NCBI GenBank assembly: GCA_020437805.1
Contig: JAGQVV010000040.1
Coordinates: 380-39,525, forward strand
Length of the DNA: 39,146 nucleotides
DNA from: Flavobacteriales bacterium
GTDB lineage: Bacteria; Bacteroidota; Bacteroidia; Flavobacteriales_F; PHOS-HE28
Direction of reading: 5' to 3'
The notes below the pieces were generated by a model. It searched no databases. It saw only the letters and a list, made by a program, of their open reading frames with translations, and was not told where the DNA came from. The position numbers and the translations under genes are program-made. This document shows positions 8,173 through 38,266 of the stretch, one piece after another (positions within the stretch are counted from its first letter, which is position 1; each line of letters begins with the position of its first letter).

Positions 8173-11100
8173 GTTCACGTGGCCAGTGAGGGTTTCCGCC
8201 TTCACGCCGTCCGCGGCGAGTACCCTGTAGCCGATCCTCCAGACATAGACGCCATCTTGGGACAAGGTGCCGTTGAACATCCCGTCCCAGCCGGCATTGC
8301 GATCATCGGTGCTGTGGATCAACTCGCCCCAACGATCGAAGATCTCCATCTGGAATTCATCAACGGGTCCTGCGAAGGAAGGCAGGAACAGCTCATTGAT
8401 CCCATCGCCGTTCGGGGTGAAAGTGTTCGGAATGAACACGAACGTGGCGCAATCCCCTGGGTTGATCACGACGGTCCCGCTGGCGTCGATGCAATCACCT
8501 GAAACAGCCACTTCATAGGTGCCAGGTTCCATGATCGACAGCATGTTACCCACAGCACCCGTGTTCCACAGGTAGTTCGCCCCAGGAATAGGAGTGGCTT
8601 CGACGACTTCGATGGCACCCGGGCATAGTTCGCGGTCCGGTCCCAGGTCGATCTCGTCAATGAACGCCAGGATATCCACCACAATGGCATCACTGCTCGT
8701 GCAGCCCAAGCTATCCAAGGTGACCGTGTAGGTACCTGAGGTGCCCACCAGGATCGAATTACCTGAAGCCCCCGTTGACCAGAGGATCGATGTGGCTGAT
8801 TGGTCCACGCTCAATTCCACCACCTCGCCATCACAAATCCGCAGGTCGGGTCCGAGGTCGGGCACTTCCATGGACAGGACCTCCACATGGACCTGGTCCT
8901 CGGCCGTGCAGCCGGAAACGGTGATCATCACCGAATACGATGCTGCAGTGCCGGTCACGATGGAAGCGCTGGTCGCACCGGTATTCCAGAGGTAGGTGGC
9001 CCCGGGCGTAGTGGCGTCGAATTCGGTGGTGGTACCGGAGCAGATGATACGGTCCTCGCCCAGATCGAAGCTGCTGGGGGAGAATACGGATACCGCTATG
9101 CTATCCCGTTGTACGCATCCGTTGCGCGTCACTTCCACCCAACGGGTCGCCTCGCTCGTGACCGTGATGAGCGCCGATGTGGAGCCATCATCCCACAGGT
9201 AGGTAGCGCCCGGCTCATTGACGTCCAGTGCAAGTTCAGCACCCTCGCAGATCGTGGTGTCATTCCCCAAGTCCAAGGTCGGGCCGACCAACAGCGAAAC
9301 GGACGCTTCGTCGGATGCACTGCACCCATCCACGGTGACAGTGACGGATACCACACCGGCCTGCCCGGTCTCGAACGCCGATCCGATGGAGCCCTCGTGC
9401 CAGAGATAACTTGCGTTGGTGGTGGTCACATCGAAAAGTGTTGTGGCGCCGGGGCACAAGGCCACATCACCACCGAGGTCCACTACGGGGTTCGGGTTGA
9501 AGGTCACCGCGATGGCATCGGTCAGGATACACTCACCCACGGTGGCCTCCACGGTATAGGTCCCGGTGGTCGAAACGGTCCGGATCGGGCTCGTGGAGCC
9601 ATCTTCCCATTCCACGGAGGAACCCGGTACCGTTGCGTTCAATTCGATCGAATTTCCTTCGCACAGGAATTGGTCCGCTCCGAGGTCCAACGATCCCGGA
9701 TCCGCGTAGTCCACCACGATGGTATCACTTGCTGTGCAACCCGACAATGCCTGGAAGACCAACCAATAGGTTCCTGCTGCATCCACAGTGAAGCTCGAAG
9801 CCTCCAGCACATCGTTCCATGTGGTCACGCCGATGATCGTTGGTCCGGTGAGGGTCAGTGTATGTCCAGGGCACAAGGACGTATCGGGTCCAAGGTCCAC
9901 GGTCAACGAACCGAAGTTCACGTCGATCGCGTCACTCGCCATGCAGCCGTTCAATTCCACATCCACGGTGTAGGTGCCCGAGGTGTTGACGGACAGTGTT
10001 GCCGATGTCGCTCCTGTGTTCCACAGGTAGGAAGCGCCGGGCCATGTGGCATCCAGTACAATGCTCGATTCCCCATCGCAAAGTGTCAGGTCAGGTCCAA
10101 GGGCTACCGTCGGTATGGGGTTCAATTGAACGTTCACGGTATCCCTCGCGCTGCATCCGCTCTGTGAAACCTCCACCCAATAGCTCCCCGTGACCTGCAC
10201 TTCAACCGTGGCGGTTGTGGCGCCCGTGCTCCAGAGGTAGGTCCCGCCCGGTGTCGTTGCATCCAACACGACGGGTGTGCCTTCACAGGCTAGGATATCC
10301 GCGCCCAGGTCCAACGCATCGGGAGATAGTACCGTGATGACCACGTCATCCGTACCGACACATCCACCAGCGGAAACCTCCACGCTGAACGTACCCGTGC
10401 TCGTGGCCATGAGCGTAGGGGCCATGGAACCATCATTCCAGAGATATGTGGCCCCGGGCCAGGTGGCGTCCAAGAGCGCATGCTCACCAGCGCAGATAGT
10501 TCGATCCGGTCCGAGATCCACCACGGGGACGGGGGCCACCATCACCAGAATGGTATCGCTTGTGCTGCATTGACCAACGGTGACCTGCGCCCAATAGGTC
10601 CCACTTTCAGTTACCGTGATCGTGGGGGTCGTGGCAGCGTTGCTCCAGAGGTATAAGGCACCGGCCGTGGTGGCATCCAGGATCGCCTGTTCGCCTTCGC
10701 ATAGGACAAGATCGGGTCCAAGGTCGAGCGAGGTGGAGGAGAGTAAGGTCACCTCCACGTTGTCAGAGGCCACGCAGCCGTTCAGGTCCACATCAACGGA
10801 GTACGTTCCGGTCGCACTGGCCGTGATGGTCCCGCTGGTGGCTCCTGTGTTCCAGAGGTAGGTCGCGCCGGGCCAAGTGGCATCGAGCACCACGTCCTCG
10901 TTCGCGCAGAGCGTGACATCCGGTCCAAGATCCGCCATGGGCAAGGGGTTCACGGTGATCAAGACGGTGTCGCTGACACTGCATGTACCTTGGGTCACTT
11001 CCACCCATACCTGTCCCGCCGCGTCGATCGACAGGGAAGGGGTGATGGCCCCGGTGCTCCAGAGGTAGGAGGCGCCTGGAAGTGTCGCATCCAGGACCAC

Positions 11101-14606: not shown

Positions 14607-15647
14607 TTGACCGCGATCACCCGATACAAGCTGAGGAAGCTGGCGAAGTACACGCTGGTCACCATGGCGGTAGCCGCGGCCTTCCTGCTTTTCAGCGGCG
14701 AGCGTATGGACCTGCAGATCGGTGCCTGGGCCCTCCTCGGATTGTGGACGGGCATCCTGGAGGAGTATCTGTTCGGGCGTCGGTTCAGGGGCTTGGCCAT
14801 CCCCTTGCAGTTCCTGGGAAAGGTGTTTCTGGTGAACCTGCTCACCATCGGTCTCATCGTACTGGGTTTCGCGCTCAATTCGGAACGCTTCGATTGGTAC
14901 AGGGCGGCCCAACCCGAACGCTTGCCGCAGATATTCTTGATGAAGCAATTCTACACCCTGATGCTCCGGGTCATCATCGTAACATCATTCGCTATCCTCG
15001 TGGTGCAGGTGGAGGAGCTGATGGGACGCCGTATGTTCTTGGGGTTCCTGTTGGGCCGATATGAACGTCCCCAGGCCGAGGAGCGCGTGGTGCTCACCAT
15101 GGATCTGGTACGGAGCACCACCCTAGCAGAGCAAATGGGGGATGTCCGCTACTTCCGCTTCCTGAACACGACCTATTCCTTGATGACGGATGCCGTGTTG
15201 AGGAATGAGGCGGATATCCACAAATACGTGGGAGATGAGGTGATATTCACCTGGCCGATGCGCGTAGGCGTTCGATACGAGAACTGCCTGGATCTTTATT
15301 TCGATATCGTCGAACGCATCGAGGAGCACGCTGAGGAGATACGCTCGGAATTCGGTACTGTGCCGCAGTATCGCGCAGCCTTGCACGGCGGTCGTGTGAT
15401 CTCCGCACAGGTCGGGCATACCAAGCGTTCCTTGGAATTGAGCGGCGATGTCATGAACAGTGTTTCCCGCATGTTGGGCCTCGCGAAGGAGATGAAGGTG
15501 GACCTGCTCGCTTCCGCCGAACTTCTCGGCCGGGTACCTTCCGCGAGTGAGCGTTTCAAGGTGGGTCCCCAGCACACCGTACCAGTGAAAGGACGCAAAC
15601 GCGAGGTGCGGGTCCATGGCGTGGAACGCGAACATCGTACGGTATGA
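14607..15647 (+). CDS. Membrane-anchored class III adenylate/guanylate cyclase (cyclase 1)
   Basis: A 346-residue protein with four TM helices (about residues 14-31, 38-57, 69-90 and 115-136) and a cytoplasmic class III cyclase domain from about 155. Metal-binding Asp residues are D166 (MDLVRST) and D210 (HKYVGDEV). The base-reading Lys (K206) is present, the partner position is Glu (E277), and the transition-state pair N284/R288 is intact (SGDVMNSVSR), so it should be active and probably makes cAMP. The frame is open back to 14379, but that part overlaps the divergent gene. TTG at 14607 was chosen because a TACTTTCG box precedes it and it gives a short basic N-terminus; ATG at 14664 would cut TM1. 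Its stop overlaps the next start (ATGA). Confidence 0.88.
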   Translation: MTAITRYKLRKLAKYTLVTMAVAAAFLLFSGERMDLQIGAWALLGLWTGILEEYLFGRRFRGLAIPLQFLGKVFLVNLLTIGLIVLGFALNSERFDWYRAAQPERLPQIFLMKQFYTLMLRVIIVTSFAILVVQVEELMGRRMFLGFLLGRYERPQAEERVVLTMDLVRSTTLAEQMGDVRYFRFLNTTYSLMTDAVLRNEADIHKYVGDEVIFTWPMRVGVRYENCLDLYFDIVERIEEHAEEIRSEFGTVPQYRAALHGGRVISAQVGHTKRSLELSGDVMNSVSRMLGLAKEMKVDLLASAELLGRVPSASERFKVGPQHTVPVKGRKREVRVHGVEREHRTV

Positions 15648-16753
15648 ACCCGATATTCCGTTGCTTGTTCTTGTTGACCTTGTGGTGGCCAGGGAGCGCC
15701 TGCCTCGCGCAGGTGATGGTGCCGTTCGTGAGTGATGCCGATCGCTTCATGGTGTTCGCTGAGAAGCGATTCCTCGAGATCGATGATCTTCCACCGTCAC
15801 GGTATTGGTCGCTGAACGGTGCCGTCCTCTACCAAGGGGCTGATGGTGGCTTGGCTTATTTCGAGTTGGAAGGACGACGTACCCGGGTCGTTGAGCGAGG
15901 CCGCGCGAATGAGGTCCGGGTCTCTGGAGATCGAGCGGCATGGATGGTCCACGACACCCTGAAAGTGCTTCGCTCCGGAGCCGGTGTCGTGGTTGCCACG
16001 GGTGTGGAGCGATTCGCTGTATCGGATAGCTTGGTGGCATTCATCGATGGAGCCGGAACCGCTCTGAACGTCCTCTGGCGTGGTCAACGTATTCCCATGG
16101 CGGACATACATGAAAAGTCGGATGATGTGCTTTGGGCACAAGGCGCGAACACCGTCACGTATCATGACCGGTCCCGATCCACCATCCTGGCGTTCCAGCA
16201 TGGGGAGGTCCATATGCTCATGGATAGCGCGGATATTGGGGTCTCATACTGCGGCCGGGATATCATCGCATACTGGGATGATATCCGCGATGAATTCATC
16301 GTGGGGTGGAAGGAAGGTCGGAAGCGTCTTTCCGGATTGCGCCCTATCAACGCGAAAGCGGGTGACGGTGTTTTGGCATTCGTGGATGGGACATTGAAAT
16401 TGAAATACTGGGATGGAACGGAGGTCGTGACCCTCACGGATTCCATGCCATCGGATTATTGGGTGGAGGATCGTGTTGTCCTTTATCTTGAGGCGGGCCG
16501 CTTGAAGATGATGGCACCGGGAGGTCCGATCGATGTGGACGAGGTGGTGCCGGAACAGTGGCACGTGCAAGGGGATGGTCTCGTGTACCTCAATGCCAAC
16601 CGCGAACTATGGGGGATCTTTTCCGGCGAACGTATGCGCTTCGGGAAGGAAGCCGCGATAGATGGTTTCGAGGTGTTCGGTGATGCTGTTCTGTATCGCA
16701 GCCCCAAAGGACCCGTGACCGTGATCAAGGACGGTCGGTCTTTCGTTTTCTGA
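15644..16753 (+). CDS. Secreted beta-propeller-like protein coupled to cyclase 1
   Basis: A 369-residue protein with a signal peptide (MNPIFRCLFLLTLWWPGSACLAQ). The body is made of short beta-rich repeats of about 40-45 residues, with patterns such as YWSLNGAVLYQ, DRAAWMVHDTLKVL, DSLVAFIDG, GDGVLAFVDGTLKLKYWDG, EDRVVLYLEAG and GDGLVYLNANRELWG. These look like blades of a TolB/WD-like propeller without a clear family match. It is probably periplasmic. It starts at the ATGA that ends cyclase 1, so the two are translationally coupled; a sensor or regulator role for the cyclase is an inference. It converges on cyclase 2 with only 15 nt between stops. Confidence 0.75.
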   Translation: MNPIFRCLFLLTLWWPGSACLAQVMVPFVSDADRFMVFAEKRFLEIDDLPPSRYWSLNGAVLYQGADGGLAYFELEGRRTRVVERGRANEVRVSGDRAAWMVHDTLKVLRSGAGVVVATGVERFAVSDSLVAFIDGAGTALNVLWRGQRIPMADIHEKSDDVLWAQGANTVTYHDRSRSTILAFQHGEVHMLMDSADIGVSYCGRDIIAYWDDIRDEFIVGWKEGRKRLSGLRPINAKAGDGVLAFVDGTLKLKYWDGTEVVTLTDSMPSDYWVEDRVVLYLEAGRLKMMAPGGPIDVDEVVPEQWHVQGDGLVYLNANRELWGIFSGERMRFGKEAAIDGFEVFGDAVLYRSPKGPVTVIKDGRSFVF

Positions 16754-24617: not shown

Positions 24618-25469
24618 TTGTCACATACGCGCGTTTCCTTCCTCATCGCACCCATCCATCCTTGGCGCGACATCCTACTGGTGGAACTCGGTGCCCTTGG
24701 CTACGATAGCTTCGAGGAGACCACCGGAGGGTTGGAGGCCTACGTGCCAACAGCCGATTTCGACGCATTGGCGGTCTCCAGGCTGATGACCTTACGTGAC
24801 CCGCATGTCAGCGTATCCTGGTCCCATGCGGAGATGCCCGATCGCAATTGGAATGCGGAATGGGAGCGGAGTTTCGTGCCGGTGGAGGTGGATGGGCTTG
24901 TCCGCGTTCGCGCCGAGCACCACGAGCCGGATCCGTCCTTCAAGTATGAATTGGTCATTACACCGCGCATGGCATTCGGGACCGGGCATCACGCCACCAC
25001 GCGTATGATGGCACGTGCTATGCTGGGCCTCGATCTTGCCGGGAAGGCGGTATGCGATCTCGGGTGTGGTACAGCGGTCCTTGCCATGCTGGCCGAGCGA
25101 ATGGGAGCCGGGCACATAGTAGGGGTCGATATCGATGAAGTGGCTGTGTCCAACGCCAAGGAGAACGTGCTGCGGAACGGTTGTCCCATGATCACTGTGG
25201 AAAAGGGTGACGCCAATACCCTGGTGGGCCGCCGACACGACGCTATTTTGGCGAACATCGAACGGAATACATTGATCGATGCGATGCCGGTCATGGCCGA
25301 TGCGCTGAAGCCCGGTGGTGCGTTGCTGCTCAGTGGTTTCGTGGTGAAGGACCGCAAATACCTGGAGGCCGCCGCTGGCGATCAAGGCCTGATCATGGCG
25401 GAGCGGTTGGAGGAAGGGGAATGGTCCTTGCTTGGTTGTCGGAAACAGATCGAAAAGGATCCCGGATGA
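24618..25469 (+). CDS. prmA: Ribosomal protein L11 methyltransferase
   Basis: PrmA methylates amino groups of ribosomal protein L11 using SAM. With a TTG start at 24618 it has 283 residues. SAM-fold motifs are clear: AFGTGHHATTR (119-129), VCDLGCGTAVLAM (about 146-158), GVDIDEVAVSNAKEN (169-183) and ANIERNTL in the catalytic loop. The frame is open back to 24522 inside tpiA, but those residues are out-of-frame tpiA sequence. No ATG lies between tpiA and the first conserved strand (VSFLIAPIHPWRDILL), so TTG at 24618, 22 nt after the tpiA stop, is the best choice. The stop overlaps the next start (ATGA). Confidence 0.93.
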   Translation: MSHTRVSFLIAPIHPWRDILLVELGALGYDSFEETTGGLEAYVPTADFDALAVSRLMTLRDPHVSVSWSHAEMPDRNWNAEWERSFVPVEVDGLVRVRAEHHEPDPSFKYELVITPRMAFGTGHHATTRMMARAMLGLDLAGKAVCDLGCGTAVLAMLAERMGAGHIVGVDIDEVAVSNAKENVLRNGCPMITVEKGDANTLVGRRHDAILANIERNTLIDAMPVMADALKPGGALLLSGFVVKDRKYLEAAAGDQGLIMAERLEEGEWSLLGCRKQIEKDPG

Positions 25470-28400
25470 AAACCATGAAGAGGTTTAAGGAGCGTGCCTT
25501 GTCCATGTTCCTCGTCCTGGTCGTTGCTGGTGCAACGAATGCACAGTCAGTTTCGTTTTCCTCGGAACAGGCCCTCTTCCTTCAGGAAATGACGGACTTC
25601 GTGGTCGGGGCGGACAAGAAGGAAGGGAAACCGTTCATGGAGGAGGTCTTCGCACCGGCGTGGAACGGACCCTATTTCACGGAGGCACAACGCGTAAGGA
25701 TCGCCGAAGTGGCGAATCTCATGGCCAAGAAACGCTTTGATGCCTTCCCGCATTATCGGGATCTCCTCGGTATCCTTGTCGCCTTTTCGACAGGTGGTCG
25801 AAGCCCAGGGGAATTCGATGCATGGATGACCGGCATGGCCGGGCTCGCCGAGAGAGAGCGCAAGCAGAATGTGGTGGCCTTCCTTTCCACCTGTGCAAAC
25901 CTGTTCGACAGCAGCACCATGTTCAATAGTGCCAGTACACAGTGGCGCAGCAGTAGCAGGAAGTTCACGTTCGCTTTCGACAGCATACCCAAGGTCGTAT
26001 TCCCTTCGATGGATCTGATCTGCACGGCAAAAGGCGATAGTGCTGTGATCAAGGCCACCTCGGGTACCTATCTGCCGACCTTGGAGGTATGGCAGGGTAA
26101 AGGTGGTATCGTGACCTGGGAGCGGGCCGGCCTGAAGCCCGCGGCCACCTTCGCGGAATGGTCCCACGCGTATGAGATCAAGATGAAGAGCGCCACCTTC
26201 GAGGTGGATTCGGTCCAATTCAATGATCCCTATTTCGAGCGAACGCTGCTCGGCAAGGTCACGGACAAAGTGTTGGCGAATGTGGAGGAGGGCACCGCGA
26301 GCTATCCGCGTTTCGAGAGCTACGATAAGCGGATGAAGATCCGGGACATCGTGGAGGGGATCGATTTTGAAGGGGGATTTGGCATGCAAGGCGCCAAGCT
26401 GCAAGGCTTCGGCACCAAAGAGGAGCCGGCGTTCATGACCTTTTACAGGGACAAGCGCCCGTTCATCATCACCAGAGGGACCTTCTTCAGCATCGAACCC
26501 GAGCGGATCACCAGCGATGATGTGAGCGTTCGTATCGTTCTCGACAAGGATTCCATCCATCATCCCAGCGTGAGCATGCGATTCCTGAAAGGGAAGAAAT
26601 TGCTGTCCCTGATCAAGAAGGATGTCGGATTGGGCAAGGCGCCGTTCTATGACACTTATCATATGCTGGACATGTACTTCGAGACGATCTCTTGGAAGCA
26701 AGGCGATCCGTTGGTGCAATTCGGCAACCTGCAGGGAAGCACCCAGACCCGAGCCAGCTTCGAAAGCTTCAATTACTTCAAGGAGAAACGGTACGTGGGC
26801 ATGCTCGGCATCGATGCGATACATCCGCTGGTGCGGTTGAACGATTTCAGCAAACAGAACGATGGGAAGTTCTATGCGCAGGAGTTCGCCGTGTTCAGCC
26901 GTATGCAGAAGGATGCCGTGGTGCCATTGATCATCGACATGGCCAACAAGGGCTACCTCTCCTACGACCCCGAAACGGAATGGGTGGAGACCACGCCAAG
27001 GCTGCGGCAACACATCCTTAACAGCGCGGGCAAGCAGGATTATGACGTGCTCCAGTTCAACAGCAACAGCGATAGTCTCAATGCCACGGTGAACCTGCTG
27101 AACTATGACCTGGCCATCATGGGTGTGGCGCGTATCGTAATGAGCGACTCCCAGGACGTGAAGATCTATCCGAGCGATAAGATCGTGACCGTGAAGAAAG
27201 GCCGCGATTTCTCCTTCGGTGGAAGTGTTCAGGCGGGTAAGCTGCAGTACTACGGCAAGGAATACTATTTCCACTACGAACCTTTCGTGATCGACCTGCT
27301 CAACGTCGACTCGGTCAGCTTCATGGCCGATAGCTTCGGAAAGAACGACGAGGGTCTCACCACGCTGGTACGAGTGAAGAACGTCCTGGAACAGGTGACC
27401 GGGACATTGGAACTGGATGCTCCGAGCAACAAGAGCGGACTGCAGCAGAAGAAGTACCCGGAATACCCCAAGTTCAACAGCGCCAAGGAAAGCTATGTGT
27501 TCTACGATAAGAGCAGCATTCAGCGCGGAGTCTATACCAGGGACAAGTTCTATTACCGTAGCGATCCCTTCCAATTGGATAGTTTGGACAACTTCACCAA
27601 TGCCGGTCTGAATTTCACGGGGACCCTGGTCTCTGGTGGGATCTTCCCGGATATCAAACAACCGCTCGGGCTACAGCCGGACTATGCCTTGGGCTTCGTG
27701 CGCGGTACCGGCGATGCGGGTATGCCGTTGTATGGACGAAAGGCCACCTTCACGAACGAGATCAGCCTCAACAGCCGTGGCCTTCAGGGCAAGGGGGAAC
27801 TCGCCTATCTCACCACCACGCTCAGTTCGCGTTCCTTGATCTTCTGCCCGGACAGTACCCTCGGTCGCGCCGATACCTTGACGAATCGTTCATCCACTGC
27901 ACCGGCCAAGGTGCCGAAAGTGGTGGGTAGCGACCTGTTCGTCCGTTTGGAGCCACTGAAGGATAATCTGCGGGTCGAAAAGTTGCGCAAGGCCATGACC
28001 ATGTATGATGGTCAAGCGTACTTGTACGGGCTCACGGACCTCACGCCACAAGGCATGACCGGCGCGGGTCTGGTCGATTTCACCAACGCTACATTGAAGT
28101 CTGACCTGTACAGCTTCGAGACGATGCAACTGCATGCGGATACGTCGGATTTCCGCCTGACGGAAGGGGATACCTCGAGCATCGCCTTCAAAACGGACAA
28201 TGTGAACGCCACGGTCAAGCTCGATGAACGTGTGGGTGAGTTCGTGAGCAATGGCACGGAGACGAAGGTCGAATTCCCGGTGAACCAGTACATGTGTTAC
28301 ATGGACCGGTTCAAGTGGTTCATGGACCAAGGGGACATCGAACTTGAGAGTGATCGTACGGCCGCCGTTGGTAACGAGGACCTCCAGCTCTCCGGGTCCA

Positions 28401-29920
28401 ACTTCATCAGTACGCGGGAGGACCAGGACTCGCTCAGCTTCATGGCGCCCAAGGCGCGGTATGACCTTAAGAAGCACCTGATCACCGCCAACGATGTACA
28501 GTACATCCAAGTGGCCGATGCTCTTGTGACCCCGGACAGCATGCGCGTTCGGATCCGGAAGAACGCCGTAATGGACCCGCTCACCAACGCTGTGATCACC
28601 GCGAACTACGTGACCAAGCACCATCGCATCTACAACGCCACGGTCAATATCAAAGCCAAGCGGAAATACAGCGCCACCGGCGATCTGGACTATGTCGACG
28701 TGAACAAGAAACCATACAGGATCACTTTGCACAACATCGACGTCGATACCGCTTACCAGACCTATGCGAACGGTCGGATCCCCAAGGAGGCCGACTTCCA
28801 GTTGAGCCCCGCATTCGATTTCTTCGGTGAGGTGCGCTTGACCTCGAGCATCAAGGAACTCACCTTTTCCGGAAGCACCCGGATCCAGCATGGCTGCGAC
28901 GGCCTTTCCAAGAACTGGATGACGTTCACGGGCGAGATCGATCCCTTGGAGGTCTTCATTCCAGTTGCGGATACGCTCTTTGATGATACCGGTGCGCTCA
29001 TTGGTGCTGGGGTATATCTCACGAACGAGGACCCCTTCAAGACCTATGGGACCTTCCTCAGTCGAACGCAGGATCGAAAGGACCACCCCATCATCAATGC
29101 GAAAGGCCTTTTGTTCTATGATGAAGGCCGCAAGGAGTACATGATCTCCAACAAGGACAAGATCCGCAAGCGTGATCTTCCCGGTGATCTTGTGAGCTTG
29201 GCGGTGGAGAATTGCGTGATCCTTGGCGATGGTCGTATCGACCACGGCGTGGACCTTGGGCGCGTGGCGCTGACCAATGTGGGCTCCTTGCGCTTCGAGG
29301 CCGATGGTGCGAAAGCAAGCACCGAGGAGGTGATGATCGCCGATTTCCACTTCTTGGACAACGCGTTGGAGCGCATGGCCGAGGAGATCCTCGCTTACCC
29401 CGACCAAAAACAAGTGGATATCACCAAGACCTACTATGAGAAGATGTTGCGCGAAGTGCTTGGTCGGGAGCGTTCGGACAAATTGATCAGCGAATTGAGC
29501 ATCAAAGGAGAGATCAAGAAGCTTCCGGACGAGATCATGAAGCCATTGGTGTTGGCCGATGTGAAGATGCGTTGGGATGGCCCTGAGCAAAGCTGGTTGA
29601 GCGATGGCCCGATCGGGATCGCGAGCATCCTGAAGAAGCCGGTGTACCGCTACGTTAAAGGAAAGGTCCACCTGGAACGCAAGCGCAGTGGGGATATCCT
29701 TACCATCCTGCTCATGCTCGACGATCAGTCGTACTACTTCTTCCAATACACGCGGAACTACCTTTACGCTTACAGCAGTGACAATACCTTCAATACCATG
29801 TTGAGCGAGGTGAAGGACGACAAGCGACAATTGGATGGCGGCAAGGACCAAGCGCCTTACCAGTACATCCTGACCAACAGGAAAAAGGCGGATGACTTCC
29901 GCGAACGATTCGGCCTCTGA
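25466..29920 (+). CDS. Very large secreted protein of unknown function (1484 aa)
   Basis: It begins at the ATGA that ends prmA. A signal peptide (MKTMKRFKERALSMFLVLVVAGATNAQ) is followed by a helical domain (about 28-130: SSEQALFLQEMTDFVVGADK, PYFTEAQRVRIAEVANLMAKKR) and then about 1250 residues of beta-strand-rich sequence with no TM segment. Recurring themes are VRIVLDKDSIHHP, YDLKKHLITANDVQYIQVAD and VKLDERVGEF, reminiscent of stacked beta layers such as OstA/LptA-like or AsmA/TamB-like folds, but no family can be assigned by eye. It lies between prmA and the lipid gene plsY and ends 3 nt before plsY. An envelope role, perhaps lipid-related, is only an inference from position and fold impression. 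The long frames on the opposite strand are shadows. Confidence 0.85.
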   Translation: MKTMKRFKERALSMFLVLVVAGATNAQSVSFSSEQALFLQEMTDFVVGADKKEGKPFMEEVFAPAWNGPYFTEAQRVRIAEVANLMAKKRFDAFPHYRDLLGILVAFSTGGRSPGEFDAWMTGMAGLAERERKQNVVAFLSTCANLFDSSTMFNSASTQWRSSSRKFTFAFDSIPKVVFPSMDLICTAKGDSAVIKATSGTYLPTLEVWQGKGGIVTWERAGLKPAATFAEWSHAYEIKMKSATFEVDSVQFNDPYFERTLLGKVTDKVLANVEEGTASYPRFESYDKRMKIRDIVEGIDFEGGFGMQGAKLQGFGTKEEPAFMTFYRDKRPFIITRGTFFSIEPERITSDDVSVRIVLDKDSIHHPSVSMRFLKGKKLLSLIKKDVGLGKAPFYDTYHMLDMYFETISWKQGDPLVQFGNLQGSTQTRASFESFNYFKEKRYVGMLGIDAIHPLVRLNDFSKQNDGKFYAQEFAVFSRMQKDAVVPLIIDMANKGYLSYDPETEWVETTPRLRQHILNSAGKQDYDVLQFNSNSDSLNATVNLLNYDLAIMGVARIVMSDSQDVKIYPSDKIVTVKKGRDFSFGGSVQAGKLQYYGKEYYFHYEPFVIDLLNVDSVSFMADSFGKNDEGLTTLVRVKNVLEQVTGTLELDAPSNKSGLQQKKYPEYPKFNSAKESYVFYDKSSIQRGVYTRDKFYYRSDPFQLDSLDNFTNAGLNFTGTLVSGGIFPDIKQPLGLQPDYALGFVRGTGDAGMPLYGRKATFTNEISLNSRGLQGKGELAYLTTTLSSRSLIFCPDSTLGRADTLTNRSSTAPAKVPKVVGSDLFVRLEPLKDNLRVEKLRKAMTMYDGQAYLYGLTDLTPQGMTGAGLVDFTNATLKSDLYSFETMQLHADTSDFRLTEGDTSSIAFKTDNVNATVKLDERVGEFVSNGTETKVEFPVNQYMCYMDRFKWFMDQGDIELESDRTAAVGNEDLQLSGSNFISTREDQDSLSFMAPKARYDLKKHLITANDVQYIQVADALVTPDSMRVRIRKNAVMDPLTNAVITANYVTKHHRIYNATVNIKAKRKYSATGDLDYVDVNKKPYRITLHNIDVDTAYQTYANGRIPKEADFQLSPAFDFFGEVRLTSSIKELTFSGSTRIQHGCDGLSKNWMTFTGEIDPLEVFIPVADTLFDDTGALIGAGVYLTNEDPFKTYGTFLSRTQDRKDHPIINAKGLLFYDEGRKEYMISNKDKIRKRDLPGDLVSLAVENCVILGDGRIDHGVDLGRVALTNVGSLRFEADGAKASTEEVMIADFHFLDNALERMAEEILAYPDQKQVDITKTYYEKMLREVLGRERSDKLISELSIKGEIKKLPDEIMKPLVLADVKMRWDGPEQSWLSDGPIGIASILKKPVYRYVKGKVHLERKRSGDILTILLMLDDQSYYFFQYTRNYLYAYSSDNTFNTMLSEVKDDKRQLDGGKDQAPYQYILTNRKKADDFRERFGL

Positions 29921-29923
29921 ACC

Positions 29924-30574
29924 ATGGAGTTCCCTTGGGTGTACGGAACGGCATCAATGGTGGCAGCTTACCTAGTGGGGAGCATCCCCACCAGCGTGTG
30001 GTGGGGAAGAACCTTCCACGGGCTGGACGTGCGCGAACACGGCAGTCGCAATGCGGGCGCCACCAACACCTTCCGGGTGCTCGGGAAAAGGGCCGGAATT
30101 CCAGTGCTGATGATCGATATCCTGAAGGGATTCTTACCGGTACGTATCCTCCCGAACTTCACTTCATTGGATCCCGATTCGGCGCCTTGGATGTGGTTCC
30201 GATTGGCCCTGGTCATCGCAACGGTGCTCGGGCATCTGTATCCGGTGTTCGCGGGCTTCAGGGGCGGGAAGGGGGTCGCCACCTCCTTCGGCGGCATCCT
30301 CGCCATTCATCCCGGAGCGGCCGGTGCCTGCGTAGTGGTATTCACGTTGGTCTTTTTCACAACGCGCTATGTCTCACTCGGGTCGCTTTCCGCAGCGATC
30401 ACCTTTCCCTTGGCCGTGTTGCTGGTCTTTCACGAAACAAGTCCGGTCAAGATCGGCTTCGCGGTGATATTGTGCCTGCTGGTCTTCTACACGCATCGGC
30501 AGAACATCGGACGATTGCTCCGTGGCGAGGAACGTCGCATGTCCTTGGCTGGGGCAAAGGACAGCGAAGAATGA
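29924..30574 (+). CDS. plsY: Acyl-phosphate:glycerol-3-phosphate acyltransferase
   Basis: PlsY makes lysophosphatidic acid from acyl-phosphate and glycerol 3-phosphate, the first acylation in phospholipid synthesis. It is a 216-residue polytopic inner-membrane protein. The family motifs are all present: GSIPTSVWWGRTFHGLDVREHGSRNAG (19-45, with the SIPT and GSRNAGATN active-site loop), GHLYPVFAGFRGGKGVATSFG near 103-123, and a third loop RYVSLGSLSAA. It starts 3 nt after the preceding stop, so it is co-transcribed with tpiA, prmA and the 1484-residue gene. The tail after the last TM is basic. Confidence 0.96.
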   Translation: MEFPWVYGTASMVAAYLVGSIPTSVWWGRTFHGLDVREHGSRNAGATNTFRVLGKRAGIPVLMIDILKGFLPVRILPNFTSLDPDSAPWMWFRLALVIATVLGHLYPVFAGFRGGKGVATSFGGILAIHPGAAGACVVVFTLVFFTTRYVSLGSLSAAITFPLAVLLVFHETSPVKIGFAVILCLLVFYTHRQNIGRLLRGEERRMSLAGAKDSEE

Positions 30575-30618: not shown

Positions 30619-33600
30619 ATGACCCGCATTTCGGGCATACTTATCGGCGCTCTCTTCACCATACTGGCACATGCCCAGGGTGGTGACCAACAGCTGCGCG
30701 CCAAGGCCGATGGGCTCTTTGAACAGAAGAATTACATCGAGGCGCTTCCCCTGTACAGTCAACTCGTCAGCCTCAACCCGAGCGATAGGGTTCTCAATTA
30801 CCGTTTCGGGACATGCCTGCTCTTCGGTGGTGAGGAGAAGGACAAAGCCATTGGCCACCTCAAATTCGCCGTGGAGGATCCCGGGATACCGGCCGATGCC
30901 TGGTTCTGGCTGGGGCGCGCCTACCATTTGAGCTATATGTTCAAGGAGGCCCAAGCGGCGTATCAGCGATACCAGGGCACCGCGAGCAAGAAAGAGTTGG
31001 AGGGGTTCTCCGTTGCCGCATTGGACAAACAGTGCAGGAACGGTCAGCGCCTTCTGAACAACTTGAAGGAGATCACAGTGCGGAACAAGGTGGAGGTGGA
31101 TGACAATGAGTTCTTCCGATTCTATGACCTCAGTGACATCGGAGGAAAGATCGTGGTCTTACCCGAGGAACTGATGTCCGGTCTGGACAAGAAGAGCAAC
31201 GAACGTACGCTCGTGTACCTCCCGAACAATGGTGCACCGATCTATTTCAGCAGCTACGGGAAGGACGGAAAGACGGGTCGCGATATCTACCGCACGGAAC
31301 TGATGCCCGAAGGTCGGTTCGCACCGCCCGTGAAGCTCGCAGGTTACATCAACACCGACCAGGATGAGGATTACCCGTTCCTGCACCCGGATGGTAAGAG
31401 CTTCTACTTCAGTAGCAAGGGCCACAACAGTATGGGTGGCTACGATGTCTTCCGGTCCGCCTATGACAAAGGGCTCGATGTTTTCGGCCCGCCGGAGAAC
31501 ATGGACTTCGCGGTGAATACCCCGGACGACGACTTGTTCTATCTGGTCGATCCCGAGAACAAAGAGGCATGTTTCGCCAGTGGGCGTGATAGTGAGCAAG
31601 GAAAGCTGCACGTGTACCGGGTATCCACCGCCCAAATGCCGGTGGTGCTCACGGTCCTGAAGGGGACCTATGCCAGCGCGTTCGATCCGGATGATCGCAA
31701 GGCACACATCATGGTGGAAGATGCCACCACACGTGAGAAGGTAGCTGATGTACGGACCGATATGAACGGCTCCTACATCCTATCGTTACCCCGCAGTGGG
31801 CAATTCCGGTTCGCTGTGGAATGTGGCCCGAGTGGTCGAACACACACCGGGCTCGTGGATATTCCAAGATCTTCTTCACCACGTGCCTATCGGCAGGAAT
31901 TGGAACTGACCAGGCAGGGGGATCTCGAGAAGCTCGTGATCCACAATTATTTCGACAGCCCCTTGGATGAGGATATGATCGCTTTGATGATGGATGAGAT
32001 CAAGCGGCGCGCTCGTCTTGACCTCTCAGGGGAGCGACCCGAGATCGTCGAGGCCCAGGAAACGGATGTGCCGGTGGGTGATGTCATGACCCAAGCCGGG
32101 TTCACCGGCGACATCACCTTGGATCAAGCCGTGGCCTTGGCGAAGGATGATGCCGCCGACTTGGAGCGAAAGTCATACGACTTGGAAATGCTGGGGCAAG
32201 AGGCCTATGCCATAGCCATGGAAGCAGCCTCGGAATCGGATCGCACGGCCAGAGCAGCAGAAGATCTGGTCAAGGCTGCCGAGGTCGCACCGACCGAAGA
32301 GGAGAAGAACGCAACGATGGTCGAGGCGGCACGGATCAGGCAGCGTTCCAAAGAGGCCAACATGCGTGCCCGGGCCGCATTGTATACCGGCCAGGACCTT
32401 GGATCCGAAGCCTTGGCCACCCGGCAACGTGCCCTGGCCGCGGGGAAACTCGCCACCGACCTTTCCAACACAGTGGCCGCCAAGAACGACAAGGCCACGC
32501 TCCCGCTGTTGACAACCCTCAAGGAACGCTTGGATACCAAGGCCGGTCCCAACGGAGACTTGGACCCGGCCGAGCGCGCGCGACGCTCACTTTCGGAACA
32601 GGAGCAGGAAGCCGCGAAACAGCTTCGCGTCGCCAATGCGAAACGGGCCGAGGAGAATGAGTTCATGGACCGCATAGCGCGCACTGAGCGTGAGCGCGAT
32701 GAAACACGGAACAAGGGCAAGCAGGAAGAGCTTGACCGTCAAATAGCGGAACAAAAGCAACAGTTGTCCTATCTGCACAAAGAGGTGGAGGAGTCCTTCA
32801 CCAAGGCCAAGGAGCAGGAGCAACGTACGGCGGTGCTGCGTGGGCAAGCATCGCTCACCGCTCATTTGACGAGTACTTCTGAACGTGGCGCGGCCACAGA
32901 TCTTTCTGCTCAGCAGGTCTCAGGTCTTGGACAACGCATCGCAGGCAATGAAACCCGGATCGGCTCGTTGGCGATCGATGAACGCTATGATGCTCAGATA
33001 TCCTCCTCCACGGCCGAAGTGGAAGCGCGCAGCTTCGATTGGGACCTCGCCTCGGCGGGTGCGGAGACCGGCGAGGCCCGCCGATCGACCACTGCACGCG
33101 ACGGGACGGACGATGCAACGAACACAACAGGACGTACCTCCACGGTCATCTCCGATGTGTCGCCAGGACAGGTGAAGGAAGCGGAGGTTACCGAGGTCAT
33201 ATTGGGTTCAACGGCAGAGGAACTCGCGGATACAGGACGGGATGAAGCATCAGGAGCTGTGGCCATTGGTGATCCTGATCTCGATCCCGAAGTGACGGCT
33301 GCGGGGCTCGAGGACACCAGGACCGAACGCACCGATGCAGGAACGAACGCGATCGACGAGAGGACCGTTTCCCCCGTTGCGGACATTGCCTCGGATACCG
33401 GCACCGAACAGGCCACCGCCGATACGGAAGGGCCGGAAAGGAATGGCGCCGAAATGGACAATACCGGATCCGCCTTGGAGGGTTCCGGCGCATCCGATCC
33501 ACTCGCCTCGGATGAGGTGGATGCCTTTATCCTGGAGAATCGGAAAGCCGAGTTGGAACAAGCCCTGGCGGCGGAACGCAACAAGGCTCGTAAGGACAGT

Positions 33601-36600
33601 CTTCAGGCATCCCTGGATGTGGTGGAGGAGCGCATCAGAACCAACGCGGATGATGGGGCCATCGTGGAACGAACACCGGTCAATGAAGGGACGGACACCT
33701 ATGGCGTGGATATGACCCGTACCCCGATCACCTTCTACCCGGACTCGAAGGACGAGGATATCATCGCCATGCTCCATGCCGACTATGCTGCGGACAAGGA
33801 GCGTTTGGAAGCCATCGGGGATACGACTCTTCGCGCGGAAGCACTGAGCGGACTGGAGCTGATGCTGGCGGATAGTCTACGAGGTGAAATGGTACGTCAA
33901 GCCACCATTCTAGAGCTTTCCCCGGAGCAAAGTGATGTCGTGCTACCGAAAATGGAACGCCTACGCGTGATGCGTCAGACCCATTTGAAGACCGCTGACC
34001 AATATGAACGGATGAGCAAAGCACCGCTTGCGGAGCGTACCGAGCCCTTGGATGCCGATCGCGCACGACCTGCACCACGGGCGGCCGTTCGTTACTTGGA
34101 CGGACAGGACCCCATAGCCGATCGTTTCGTTGCCGTACAACCTGATGCGCAGAACGTCTACGCCAGCAAGTTGGAGCATCGGTCGACCAAGGTGGATGAC
34201 GCGGTGGCCTTCAAGGATGCCGATCTGGAGCGATTGGATCGCCTGACGGCGGAGATCGATTCCATCGAAATGGGAATGAACGGCTTGCCCCGCAAGGAGT
34301 ATGATAAGCAGCGTCGGGAAGCGGACAAGCTGATCGATGAGCGTATGATCATCCGCTCCGACCTCGGTCAACGCAGCGCCTTCCTTTCGAAGGAGGAATG
34401 GCGCACTGCGACCGATAGTATGAAGGTACTTGACAAGCAGCTCTCCACGTTGGGTTTGGCGCCGGATGAGAACCTTCTGCTCATGGCCAAGGGTATGGGC
34501 GCCGAGGCGGGCACGCTCTTCGATCGTGCTGCCGGCTTGCGCAAACGTGCCGATCGCAGCGAGGACATCCTTGAACGGGACAGCTTGTACCGAACCGCAT
34601 ATGCCATGGAGTTGAGCGCTCTTAAGGAGATCGATCGTGCGCTTACCGTGAAGAACTACTTGATCGGTAAGGACTTCCGGAGAGGAGAGACGCTTGCGTA
34701 CGAACAGGTCGCCAGCAAAGTGCTGGGTATCGATGCTCCCCTGTACGCCGAGGAACAGGATGCGGAAAGGGCCCCGACGGATCCATCCATCGCACGTACC
34801 GGTCACATTTCGGATGGAACGTTGACCTCCCAAAGTGGAACGGAGGAAGGCGGTTCGCGCACGATCGCTGTGAGTTCTGGTGTTCCATCGGGGCCGGTCA
34901 GCGTGGCATTGACGGCTGATGGTCCTGAAAGCGAGGCCGCGATCGACCGTACGGATAAAGGTGCGGAAACCGACGGCCCAGCGACGACAGGAGGTACCAC
35001 GTTGGTTGGACCGACGGCGGTCGAGGCCGCCAATGCTACCGAGCGTGCACGTTCCGAAGCGATCGATGAAGTGGAGCGTGCGAGTGCACAAGTTCCTGCT
35101 GAAGCGCTCGATCCCGCTGTGCGCTATGAACGGTTCATGACCAGCGAGAGTGTGGTACTCGCACCGGAGGCCATGGATCCAGCCTATGACCCTGAACTTC
35201 TTTCCATCCAGGCCAAGGCAGCAGTAAGGAACTCTGCCGAATTGGAGCAACGTTCACTTGAGCTCGCGGATCGTGCCACGGTCCTGGAGGACAGCGCCGT
35301 CACGGCACGAAAGCGGGATCGCGAGGAGTTGACCATTTTGGCGGTCCGTACCCGGTCCACGTCAGATTCCTTGCATACCGCATCGGTGTTGAAGTCCGAA
35401 GAGGCACGTTCCTTGGAGCTGCAACGCCGTGACGCGGAGCAGGCCAAGGTGCTGCGTGACCGGCTCGTGAAGTACTACTACCTCTCACCGGAGGAACAAG
35501 CCATGGTCGTGGAGAATGCCGATCAAAGCCGGTATTTCCAGGCGAAGGCCCGTGCTTTGGAGCAGTATGATATGGCACGGGAGGCGGAAGAGGCGGCCGG
35601 TATCAATCGGAACCTTGCCGGCACCTTGCGTGCACAGGTGGAAAGCACGCGTAAGGATGTGGCGGAAGGACGGATCACACCGGCCGAAGGCGATGCACGC
35701 AACGAGGTACTGGTCACGCGATCCGGGCTCTTCGAGGCACGGGCGGATTCGCTCAGCAACGTGGCCGCTCGCTTGCGTGGAGCGGCTGGTATCAACGAAG
35801 GTCAGGCCACCGTGATGCTGCAGTCCGTACCCGAGGACCGTTCCACGGAGTGGATGGCATTGGAGATGCGGGCGCGTCGTACCGAGGCTCTATTGGCCGA
35901 GGCACGGGACCAAGCCGGACGCCAGCGTAACGCGGCGATCACGCCCGTTGATGGAACCGTCGATCCGACGTTATCCATTGCGGGGACCAGGACCGGCAAC
36001 TCGATCCCAGCTTCATCTGAACGTCAGGCAGGGGCGACCACACGACCGGTCGGCACTGAGAACAACAGGCCCATCACCGAAAGTGCTCCTTCAGGCGCAG
36101 TGCTGGCGGTCGGTTTCCCGGACGAGCTCGTGACCGACATTTTCGAACTGAAGGATGCCGGCGTTCGCAGTGCCGAACCGATCCCGATCGATGTGCGCTT
36201 GCCCCAAGGCTTGGTGTTCAAGGTCCAGATCGGTGCCTTCCGCAATGCCATCCCGGAAGAGACCTTCAGTGATATGACACCGGTGACGGGCGAGCGGCTC
36301 GACAATGGTATAGTGCGCTACACCGCCGGTCTGTTCACCGGATTCGAACAGGCTTCCGAAGCGAAGGACCTTGTGCGTGATCGTGGCTATCGCGATGCCT
36401 TCGTAGTCGCTTATCGGGACGGGGAGCGCATTCCTTTGGGCGTCGCCATGCGTGAAGCACGTGCGGAACGTGATCTGGCCGTGGCAACAACTCCGGTACC
36501 CACCACACCTTCGAACGGTACCATTCGGACCGATGGATCGGATGCGGACCCGAACGGCACACGGCCCGCTGCGCGAAGGGCGGAAGGAAATACCGTACTG

Positions 36601-37113
36601 GAACCAAGGACGGGCCAAGTGCCTGCGCAGCCCACGCAACCCGCCGTCATCAGTGCGCCCATCGTGATCCCGATACCGGAGGTATCAAGCACTGCTGATG
36701 ATCCCACGGCGAAGTACGCATCAACGGCGGACGCCATCCTTTCGGAATTCAACGCTGCACCCGGGTCTGCCGGCTATTACAACGGAGCGGATGCTGCTCC
36801 AGCACGTCAGGTGGAGACCATCGCAGGCCTCTTCTTCACGGTCCAGGTAGGAGTATACAGCAAGCCGGTCCCATTGGGCAGGATCTTCAACATCACTCCG
36901 CTGAACACCGAACGCACCAGCACCGACAAGATCCGCTATACCACCGGGATGTACTTCGATCCCGAAGCGGCTCGGGTGCGGAAGGACGAGACCGTCGCAT
37001 CGGGCGTGAAGGACGCCTTCGTGACGGCCTACCTCAATGGCAAGCGCATCCCCATGCAGGAGGCTTCCGCGCTCTTGGACAAGTTCGGACCGGCCATTCT
37101 GGCGAAGCCTTGA
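30619..37113 (+). CDS. Giant envelope protein: TPR, PD40 propeller, CRD, coiled coils, two SPOR-like domains
   Basis: A 2164-residue protein. A signal peptide (residues 1-20) precedes TPRs (about 22-150), a PD40/WD40 propeller (about 195-330: APIYFSSYGKDGKTGRDIY, HPDGKSFYFSSKGHNSMGGY, CFASGRDSEQGKLHVY) and a carboxypeptidase-regulatory-like domain (about 345-425). This opening order matches the T9SS outer-membrane anchor PorE. Where PorE has an OmpA domain, this protein has coiled coils (about 490-770), an acidic Thr/Glu-rich linker (about 800-960), more coiled coil to about 1360, a second linker to about 1470, coiled coil again, and two SPOR-like domains (about 1860-1945, FKVQIGAFRNAIP...YTAGLFTGF; about 2068-2150, FTVQVGVYSKPVP...YTTGMYFDP). 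SPOR domains bind denuded peptidoglycan. It probably links the outer membrane or T9SS to the cell wall; that is inference. Confidence 0.85.
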   Translation: MTRISGILIGALFTILAHAQGGDQQLRAKADGLFEQKNYIEALPLYSQLVSLNPSDRVLNYRFGTCLLFGGEEKDKAIGHLKFAVEDPGIPADAWFWLGRAYHLSYMFKEAQAAYQRYQGTASKKELEGFSVAALDKQCRNGQRLLNNLKEITVRNKVEVDDNEFFRFYDLSDIGGKIVVLPEELMSGLDKKSNERTLVYLPNNGAPIYFSSYGKDGKTGRDIYRTELMPEGRFAPPVKLAGYINTDQDEDYPFLHPDGKSFYFSSKGHNSMGGYDVFRSAYDKGLDVFGPPENMDFAVNTPDDDLFYLVDPENKEACFASGRDSEQGKLHVYRVSTAQMPVVLTVLKGTYASAFDPDDRKAHIMVEDATTREKVADVRTDMNGSYILSLPRSGQFRFAVECGPSGRTHTGLVDIPRSSSPRAYRQELELTRQGDLEKLVIHNYFDSPLDEDMIALMMDEIKRRARLDLSGERPEIVEAQETDVPVGDVMTQAGFTGDITLDQAVALAKDDAADLERKSYDLEMLGQEAYAIAMEAASESDRTARAAEDLVKAAEVAPTEEEKNATMVEAARIRQRSKEANMRARAALYTGQDLGSEALATRQRALAAGKLATDLSNTVAAKNDKATLPLLTTLKERLDTKAGPNGDLDPAERARRSLSEQEQEAAKQLRVANAKRAEENEFMDRIARTERERDETRNKGKQEELDRQIAEQKQQLSYLHKEVEESFTKAKEQEQRTAVLRGQASLTAHLTSTSERGAATDLSAQQVSGLGQRIAGNETRIGSLAIDERYDAQISSSTAEVEARSFDWDLASAGAETGEARRSTTARDGTDDATNTTGRTSTVISDVSPGQVKEAEVTEVILGSTAEELADTGRDEASGAVAIGDPDLDPEVTAAGLEDTRTERTDAGTNAIDERTVSPVADIASDTGTEQATADTEGPERNGAEMDNTGSALEGSGASDPLASDEVDAFILENRKAELEQALAAERNKARKDSLQASLDVVEERIRTNADDGAIVERTPVNEGTDTYGVDMTRTPITFYPDSKDEDIIAMLHADYAADKERLEAIGDTTLRAEALSGLELMLADSLRGEMVRQATILELSPEQSDVVLPKMERLRVMRQTHLKTADQYERMSKAPLAERTEPLDADRARPAPRAAVRYLDGQDPIADRFVAVQPDAQNVYASKLEHRSTKVDDAVAFKDADLERLDRLTAEIDSIEMGMNGLPRKEYDKQRREADKLIDERMIIRSDLGQRSAFLSKEEWRTATDSMKVLDKQLSTLGLAPDENLLLMAKGMGAEAGTLFDRAAGLRKRADRSEDILERDSLYRTAYAMELSALKEIDRALTVKNYLIGKDFRRGETLAYEQVASKVLGIDAPLYAEEQDAERAPTDPSIARTGHISDGTLTSQSGTEEGGSRTIAVSSGVPSGPVSVALTADGPESEAAIDRTDKGAETDGPATTGGTTLVGPTAVEAANATERARSEAIDEVERASAQVPAEALDPAVRYERFMTSESVVLAPEAMDPAYDPELLSIQAKAAVRNSAELEQRSLELADRATVLEDSAVTARKRDREELTILAVRTRSTSDSLHTASVLKSEEARSLELQRRDAEQAKVLRDRLVKYYYLSPEEQAMVVENADQSRYFQAKARALEQYDMAREAEEAAGINRNLAGTLRAQVESTRKDVAEGRITPAEGDARNEVLVTRSGLFEARADSLSNVAARLRGAAGINEGQATVMLQSVPEDRSTEWMALEMRARRTEALLAEARDQAGRQRNAAITPVDGTVDPTLSIAGTRTGNSIPASSERQAGATTRPVGTENNRPITESAPSGAVLAVGFPDELVTDIFELKDAGVRSAEPIPIDVRLPQGLVFKVQIGAFRNAIPEETFSDMTPVTGERLDNGIVRYTAGLFTGFEQASEAKDLVRDRGYRDAFVVAYRDGERIPLGVAMREARAERDLAVATTPVPTTPSNGTIRTDGSDADPNGTRPAARRAEGNTVLEPRTGQVPAQPTQPAVISAPIVIPIPEVSSTADDPTAKYASTADAILSEFNAAPGSAGYYNGADAAPARQVETIAGLFFTVQVGVYSKPVPLGRIFNITPLNTERTSTDKIRYTTGMYFDPEAARVRKDETVASGVKDAFVTAYLNGKRIPMQEASALLDKFGPAILAKP

Positions 37114-37181: not shown

Positions 37182-37469
37182 ATGGCAACACGCTTCGAAT
37201 TCGCACCGGACGAACTCGTCATGGAGGAGGTCCGGAAAGGAACCGCTTCCTACCGGGAGATCGTTCTGCACAATGATGATGTGAACACCTTCGATCACGT
37301 GATCCGGTCATTGGTGGAAGTATGTGAGCATGATCCGATACAAGCCGAGCAGTGTGCTTGGATCGTGCACAACAACGGTAAGTGCAGTGTGAAGCGCGGA
37401 TCCTACGAGCAATTGGAAGCACGCTGTGATGCCTTGCAGCTTCGTGGTCTTGCCGCCGAGATCCAATGA
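37182..37469 (+). CDS. clpS: ATP-dependent Clp protease adaptor ClpS
   Basis: ClpS delivers N-degron substrates to the Clp protease. The 95-residue protein has the family core: EIVLHNDDVNTFDHVIRSL (26-44, with the N-degron-pocket DDxNT region), the CEHDPIQAEQCAWIVHNNGK helix-turn (48-67) and a YEQLEARCDALQLRGL helix with the usual C-terminal beta-strand. The 25-residue N-terminal extension is normal for the family. The start lies 4 nt after a TAAATTCG box, so its message is probably leaderless. The stop overlaps the next gene's start (ATGA). Confidence 0.95.
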   Translation: MATRFEFAPDELVMEEVRKGTASYREIVLHNDDVNTFDHVIRSLVEVCEHDPIQAEQCAWIVHNNGKCSVKRGSYEQLEARCDALQLRGLAAEIQ

Positions 37470-38266
37470 GCATGAGGTCAAAGGCCATCTTGTTGCTCGT
37501 CTTCTTGGCGGTGTTCGAGTCGTGCGCACGCGTGCCCATCACCGGTCGTCGCCAGCTTAACCTGGTGAGCGAAGGGGAGATGATGTCGATGGCATCGACC
37601 CAGTATCAGGAGTTCCTGGGTGAGAACCAACCTTTGCCACCATCCAATGCCGATGTGGTCCGCGTGAGGGACATCGGGAACAAATTGGCGTTGGCCGCCA
37701 CCACTTATTTGACCGACAACAATGCTTCGGATCGCGTGGCCGATTTCCAATGGGAGTTCAATGTGGTGAACGACCCGACCGTGAATGCCTGGTGTATGCC
37801 AGGGGGCAAGGTGGTGGTATACACCGGGATCCTGCCGATCACCCAGAACGATGCCGGGTTGGCGGTGGTCATGGGTCACGAGATCGCACATGCCATCGCA
37901 CGGCACGGCAATGAACGCATGAGCCAGGGGATCGCGGTGCAAGGGGCCGGCATGACCTTGGAGGTGCTGAACCAGCAGAAGCCGACCTACGCAGGGGATC
38001 TCTTCCTTCAAAGCTTCGGCATCGGTTCACAACTGGGGATGCTGGCGTACAGCCGCACGCATGAGACCGAGGCGGACAAAATGGGCCTGATCTTCATGGC
38101 CATGGCCGGTTATGACCCGCGCGAGGCGCCGTTATTCTGGCAACGCATGAGTGCCGGAGGCGGTGCAGCACCCCCTGAGCTCCTCAGCACCCACCCGAGC
38201 GATGAGACCCGGGTCCGGGATCTGGAGGCCTATATGCCAGAGGCTCTGAAGTATTATAAGCCATAG
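37466..38266 (+). CDS. M48-family metalloprotease, lipoprotein
   Basis: A 266-residue zinc protease. A lipoprotein signal (MSMRSKAILLLVFLAVFESC, lipid Cys at 20) places it in the periplasm or on a membrane. The catalytic helix is GHEIAHAIARHG (HEIAH at 138-142) and the third zinc ligand is in ETEADKMGL (about 201-208). It resembles the M48 BepA/LoiP group, which degrade or fold outer-membrane proteins; the conserved NPxVNAWCMPGGKVVVYTGIL strand is present as DPTVNAWCMPGGKVVVYTG. It starts at the clpS stop codon overlap, so the two protein quality-control genes are coupled. ATG at 37472 is an alternative start. Confidence 0.92.
   Translation: MSMRSKAILLLVFLAVFESCARVPITGRRQLNLVSEGEMMSMASTQYQEFLGENQPLPPSNADVVRVRDIGNKLALAATTYLTDNNASDRVADFQWEFNVVNDPTVNAWCMPGGKVVVYTGILPITQNDAGLAVVMGHEIAHAIARHGNERMSQGIAVQGAGMTLEVLNQQKPTYAGDLFLQSFGIGSQLGMLAYSRTHETEADKMGLIFMAMAGYDPREAPLFWQRMSAGGGAAPPELLSTHPSDETRVRDLEAYMPEALKYYKP

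Follow-up and report, generated by a model that had tools for sequence, protein, structure and literature searches.

The window, by which we mean the whole 39,146-nucleotide stretch of Flavobacteriales DNA analyzed here, encodes a giant protein of 2164 amino acids (30619..37113, + strand, ATG start) with a PorE-type head, a long helical and acidic spacer, no OmpA domain, and a tail that is most likely of the SPOR type. Orthologues were found, and genome searches indicate that the full-length ORF is kept in many relatives. Computation established the homology, architecture, conservation, and genome neighborhood of the giant, and bore out the layout set out in a preliminary description of this DNA, namely TPR, PD40 propeller, a carboxypeptidase-regulatory-like (CRD) fold, a helical and acidic spacer, and two SPOR-like units. 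Neither Pfam nor NCBIfam holds a model of its own for the family, and a literature search, whose reach excluded most subscription journals, returned no published description of this layout. We propose, at about even chances, that the giant is a secreted periplasmic tether that positions a PorE-type head at sites of amidase-processed glycan.

Residues 1-20 (30619..30678, +) form a probable type I signal peptide, ending in AHA ahead of QGG and devoid of a lipobox, as judged by eye rather than with a signal-peptide program. The four cysteines of the giant are found at positions 66, 139, 318, and 402, none of them close to the N-terminus, and therefore no lipoprotein anchor is predicted; with a type I signal peptide that lacks a lipobox, an outer-membrane anchor is likewise not visible. 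The protein had been interpreted as a link between outer membrane and wall, and of this interpretation the PorE-type head, the missing OmpA domain, and the SPOR-type tail stand. The outer-membrane connection, for which neither lipobox nor barrel was seen, is putative, as are placement at division or growth zones and a part in T9SS or gliding.

The head opens with a TPR domain at residues 21-150 (30679..31068, +). The Pfam TPR match is weak in the giant itself but present in 18 of 21 relatives, and Foldseek aligned the region to the TPR domain of CHIP (8e-4). A PD40 propeller follows at residues 154-336 (31078..31626, +), recognized by PF07676 (residues 244-278, 7.8e-7), by strands in the AlphaFold (AF2) model, and by hhalign to PorE-like proteins. 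The propeller is therefore present as originally described, but in shortened form, with three recognizable blades compared to five in PorE, and approximately 120 residues of the PorE-like propeller are absent according to both hhalign and the AF2 model. The third element, a CRD beta sandwich at residues 345-432 (31651..31914, +), has no PF13620 match in the giant itself but is matched in 10 of 21 relatives, and the model places strands at 345-444. Pfam matches of the relatives, the AF2 model, and hhalign thus agree on the TPR-propeller-CRD order of PorE. Comparison of giant heads with PorE-like proteins by hhalign gave a probability of 100% and an E value of 6.4e-48 over residues 173 to 448, with a PorE-like template comprising two sequences only (L093 and L103). 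With a giant-head profile, E values ranged from 1e-62 to 1e-69 for the PorE-like proteins L103, L100, and L093 and from 1e-31 to 1e-40 for PorE-type proteins. The best NCBIfam match was CHU_0125 (NF053607; 86 bits, cut-off 620), and PorE (NF052230) reached 77.6 bits, far under its cut-off of 600; both matches are centered on the propeller and CRD part.

No Pfam match to an OmpA domain was detected in the full giant, in 21 head members, or in 21 tail members, in keeping with the absence of this domain noted previously. The hhalign alignment of the head does, however, run through the CRD into the motif EKLVIHNYFD, which faces the first OmpA strand, KSIVLNFLYFEYD, of PorE-like proteins. This conserved motif and the helix that follows it (residues 433-465, 31915..32013, +; in register up to 448) may be a decayed remnant of OmpA, a reading that is suggestive rather than proven and that derives from the alignment extending up to this first strand, past which a forced alignment of the giant head to PorE-like proteins carries no meaning.

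Separate PorE-type genes (C284 and C238) occur in the genome of the window, and neither has the architecture of the giant, so that no true PorE sharing the full layout emerged. In a tree of heads, the giants fall outside the PorE-like group, with a 100/100 branch around 13 PorE-like heads; the placement of one distant giant and of L092, whose branch is very long, is loose. The presence of separate PorE-type genes and the position of the giants apart from PorE-like heads rule out the giant as the PorE of this genome. L098, a PorE-type protein of the same genome, also appears by eye to lack a lipoprotein signal. Several other arrangements of related domains were encountered: an 860-aa protein (L093:4867-7449) carries TPR, PD40, CRD, OmpA, and a SPOR unit, and hence both wall-binding domains, in one chain; an 894-aa protein (L102:3233-5917) adds several CRD-like repeats and a single SPOR unit to TPR-PD40 and has no OmpA; and a 529-aa PorE-like protein without OmpA (L100:2849-4438), from the window's own genome, adjoins a large CHU_C-related protein.

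Helical segments and acidic linkers make up the approximately 1400 residues that separate the head from the SPOR tail. The first is a long helical region at residues 501-793 (32119..32997, +), modeled at a pLDDT of about 90, whose two halves are related: segments 500-640 and 640-790 aligned by hhalign at 8e-7, versus 0.39-0.59 in column-shuffled controls. Other segment pairs of the middle reached at best 4.5e-4, a level at which we do not claim relatedness. An acidic low-complexity linker follows at residues 801-960 (33019..33498, +; net charge -26 by composition), with model pLDDT below 50 from residue 810, then a helix-rich region at residues 1021-1375 (33679..34743, +), delimited by the conservation profile and probably helical judging from its sequence, and a bundle of long helices at residues 1529-1771 (35203..35931, +; AF2 pLDDT 95-98). 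The spacer of helical and acidic character that had been described is therefore real, but it consists of separate helical segments rather than one long coiled coil. According to the conservation profile, residues 446-1850 are variable across families, in contrast to the conserved head (TPR and propeller) and the equally conserved SPOR tail.

The tail comprises SPOR-like unit 1 (residues 1862-1949, 36202..36465, +), a disordered linker (residues 1950-2067, 36466..36819, +; pLDDT mostly below 50), and SPOR-like unit 2 (residues 2068-2155, 36820..37083, +). As the preliminary description had recognized, the two units are related, being 88 aa each, 118 aa apart, and 35% identical. PF05036 scored 11.1 bits on the giant itself (E 0.55), under the curated cut-off of 21 bits, but exceeded it in several intact orthologues (29.3 bits in L036; also in genomes G038 and G004), and was listed at E values up to 1 in 20 of 21 tail members (best 6.8e-7). 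Alignment by hhalign to ordinary SPOR domains encoded by these genomes gave P values of 6.5e-6 for unit 1, 1.1e-3 for unit 2, and 2.6e-7 for a third unit present in relatives. AlphaFold predicted for each unit a strand, one helical turn, two strands, a helix, strands, and a helix (pLDDT about 75-94), an order matching the beta-alpha-beta-beta-alpha-beta arrangement of SPOR, except that the first helix is a single turn in both units. This predicted order, together with the passing of the PF05036 cut-off in orthologues, upholds the assignment of a SPOR-type tail. Q1870 and R1900 of unit 1 and Q2076 and R2106 of unit 2 were invariant in 21 tails and correspond to Q270/R309 of RlpA and Q251/R285 of FtsN, for which contact with denuded glycan or an effect on septal localization has been demonstrated (PMC6895207). 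Of the three contact arginines of RlpA, the equivalent of R309 alone could be matched, and the arginine is usually missing in the third unit of relatives. An iterated profile of the two window units found two units per giant in all complete members of the genus and three per giant in nine genomes belonging to other families, with domain E values of 1e-17 to 1e-38; since the profile was built partly from matched sequences, these values indicate family membership, not SPOR identity. Foldseek and VIA-align searches with the tail model returned helical bundles only (MsbA, F-BAR, and ESCRT-III), all matched via the helical part, and phmmer and profile searches of the PDB returned TPR and coiled-coil proteins along with a two-fragment, non-significant match to the CwlC SPOR domain. 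Taken together, we consider SPOR the most likely identity of the tail.

SPOR units of this type also occur elsewhere in the genome of the window. An Amidase_3 enzyme (2.1e-52) ends in one such unit (1.4e-13); its locus (L136/L142, G000:C259) adjoins MlaD-like and LptD-like genes, named by eye. Two adjoining genes (L139 and L141, G000:C165) encode 505-aa and 710-aa proteins that both end in giant-type SPOR, the latter with a calcium-binding-like repeat region ahead of its SPOR units, and similar pairs are found in L094 and L104. Separately, a protein of 1108 aa (L097:2165-5491, - strand) carries up to eight SPOR-like units C-terminally (PF05036, 66.7 bits overall).

Searches of 58 related genomes produced matches in 57, a figure that includes other PD40 proteins, and true giants were told apart by their length and tail. 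At E <1e-45, the tail profile matched about 112 of the 296 Bacteroidia genomes sampled, spanning about 26 families (both hand counts), so that the layout, which the preliminary description had proposed looking for in other Flavobacteriales, is widespread in the class. Most of these frames are 1500-2600 aa long, and three SPOR units are usual outside the genus, as opposed to two within it.

The giant is embedded in a conserved neighborhood. Upstream lie plsY, encoding glycerol-3-phosphate acyltransferase (29924..30574, +; PF02660, 3.6e-56), and a gene for a conserved secreted protein of 1499 aa that falls in no recognized family (25421..29920, +), while an M48 peptidase gene lies downstream (37466..38266, +; PF01435, 9.5e-33). 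Synteny showed that these genes and a PrmA-like gene are grouped with the giant both within the genus and in several families beyond it, and no T9SS or division gene was found among the conserved neighbors. The 1499-aa protein has no relative in Pfam, NCBIfam, or the PDB, is 61-84% identical within the genus, often adjoins plsY, and may act in the envelope or in lipid transport. It is present in 240 of the 296 genomes and is therefore commoner than the giant, so that co-occurrence of the two says little and adjacency alone is informative; by coordinate comparison, at least 11 of the approximately 26 families have them side by side. Elsewhere in the window are an Ig/PKD protein of 1870 aa that bears a CHU_C type IX secretion signal (8161-13773, - strand), an ordinary T9SS cargo, as well as a WG-repeat protein (6025-8172) and a ten-bladed-propeller protein (15644-16753).

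In the tether that we propose, the giant shares ancestry with PorE/CHU_0125-type proteins, and its head (TPR, shortened propeller, and CRD) would dock onto a partner in the envelope. OmpA, the domain that holds the peptide stems of peptidoglycan in PorE, would have decayed to about one strand, the flexible run of helical segments and acidic linkers would provide reach, and the two (elsewhere three) SPOR units would bind glycan strands stripped of their stems by amidases. Because the units would sit on amidase-stripped glycan, the partner of the head would be placed where the wall opens, at the septum or growth zone. Glycan binding, localization, and the identity of the partner are what we infer here. 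In favor of this reading are the homology of the head, whose alignment crosses the CRD and enters the first OmpA strand (100%, 6e-48), the SPOR scores over cut-off in orthologues, the hhalign matches, and the SPOR-like order in the model, the invariant Gln and Arg likely to contact glycan by analogy with RlpA and FtsN, an amidase in the same genome with the same SPOR type, and the conservation of the ends while the middle is free to vary. Against it are the non-significant Pfam SPOR score of the giant itself, the one-turn first helix, the single matched arginine of RlpA's three, the arginine usually absent from the third unit, and a head with no lipid anchor and an incomplete propeller.

It is also conceivable, albeit unlikely, that the giant is a T9SS or gliding accessory, in which the head meets the partners of PorE and the tail adds an extra hold on the wall. 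The PorE-type head would fit such a role, and SprA is found in nearly all giant carriers, the single exception being G089, a draft assembly. Among 45 genomes, one per family, full GldJ was present in 20 of 20 carriers versus 17 of 25 non-carriers (hypergeometric about 0.005, by hand, kinship not corrected), a weak hint of a tie to the gliding lineage. However, SprA occurs in 288 of the 296 genomes compared to about 112 for the giant, which is thus missing from most sampled T9SS genomes and not a core T9SS part; moreover, PorE-type genes exist separately in the same genome, and the conserved neighborhood is devoid of T9SS genes.

Two further explanations appear improbable to us. The SPOR proteins known so far have roles in division or morphogenesis (PMC6895207), and, given the amidase with giant-type SPOR in this genome, the giant could be a divisome or morphogenesis scaffold akin to FtsN or DamX, its head a protein-binding platform unrelated to secretion. 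Yet no division gene adjoins it, it has no transmembrane anchor as in FtsN, and its absence from most sampled Bacteroidia excludes it from the core division proteins. MreB is almost universal and therefore uninformative. Alternatively, the SPOR-like units might no longer bind glycan and instead serve protein contact or self-assembly, making the giant an envelope spacer, perhaps linked to lipid supply via plsY and the 1499-aa neighbor. The divergence of the units, their shortened first helix, and the long-standing adjacency to these genes are consistent with this, but units 1 and 2 show no variation at the two best-known positions of glycan contact, and plain gene neighborhood is no proof of shared function.

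Returning to the tether, a broader and more tentative possibility, which we regard as rather doubtful, is that the Bacteroidia possess an undescribed, class-wide set of giant tethers in which an OmpA domain binding stem peptides was exchanged for SPOR units binding stem-free glycan, hooking a PorE-type head, together with whichever machine of the outer membrane or of gliding it holds, to amidase-processed zones of the wall. If so, a wall-anchoring protein would have switched ligand from peptide-bearing wall to stripped glycan, and an envelope machine could thereby be placed at sites of wall remodeling. With the family in roughly a third of sampled genomes, the giant is a testable candidate for how Bacteroidia coordinate their envelope layers.

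Among known systems, PorE (PG1058 of Porphyromonas gingivalis) shares with the giant a homologous head and the periplasmic TPR-propeller-CRD order. PorE, however, is a lipoprotein whose propeller has five blades and whose OmpA domain binds the stem peptide (PMC7192894). In the giant, the lipobox and OmpA are both missing, the propeller is shortened, and a spacer of 1400 residues leads to the SPOR units. The CHU_0125 family of Cytophaga hutchinsonii likewise has a TPR and PD40 head but ends in OmpA, and deletion of CHU_0125 in that organism impaired outer-membrane integrity (PMC5891637). FtsN, DamX, RlpA, and CwlC resemble the giant in their C-terminal SPOR-type domain with the key Gln and Arg, but in these proteins SPOR is joined to an enzyme or held by a membrane or lipid anchor, with no TPR/PD40 head or helical spacer. 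Finally, the PorE-like proteins with SPOR (L093, L102, and the 547-aa L092) combine a related head with a SPOR unit, but differ from the giant in being short, in having one SPOR unit and no giant helical spacer, and, in the case of L093, in retaining OmpA.
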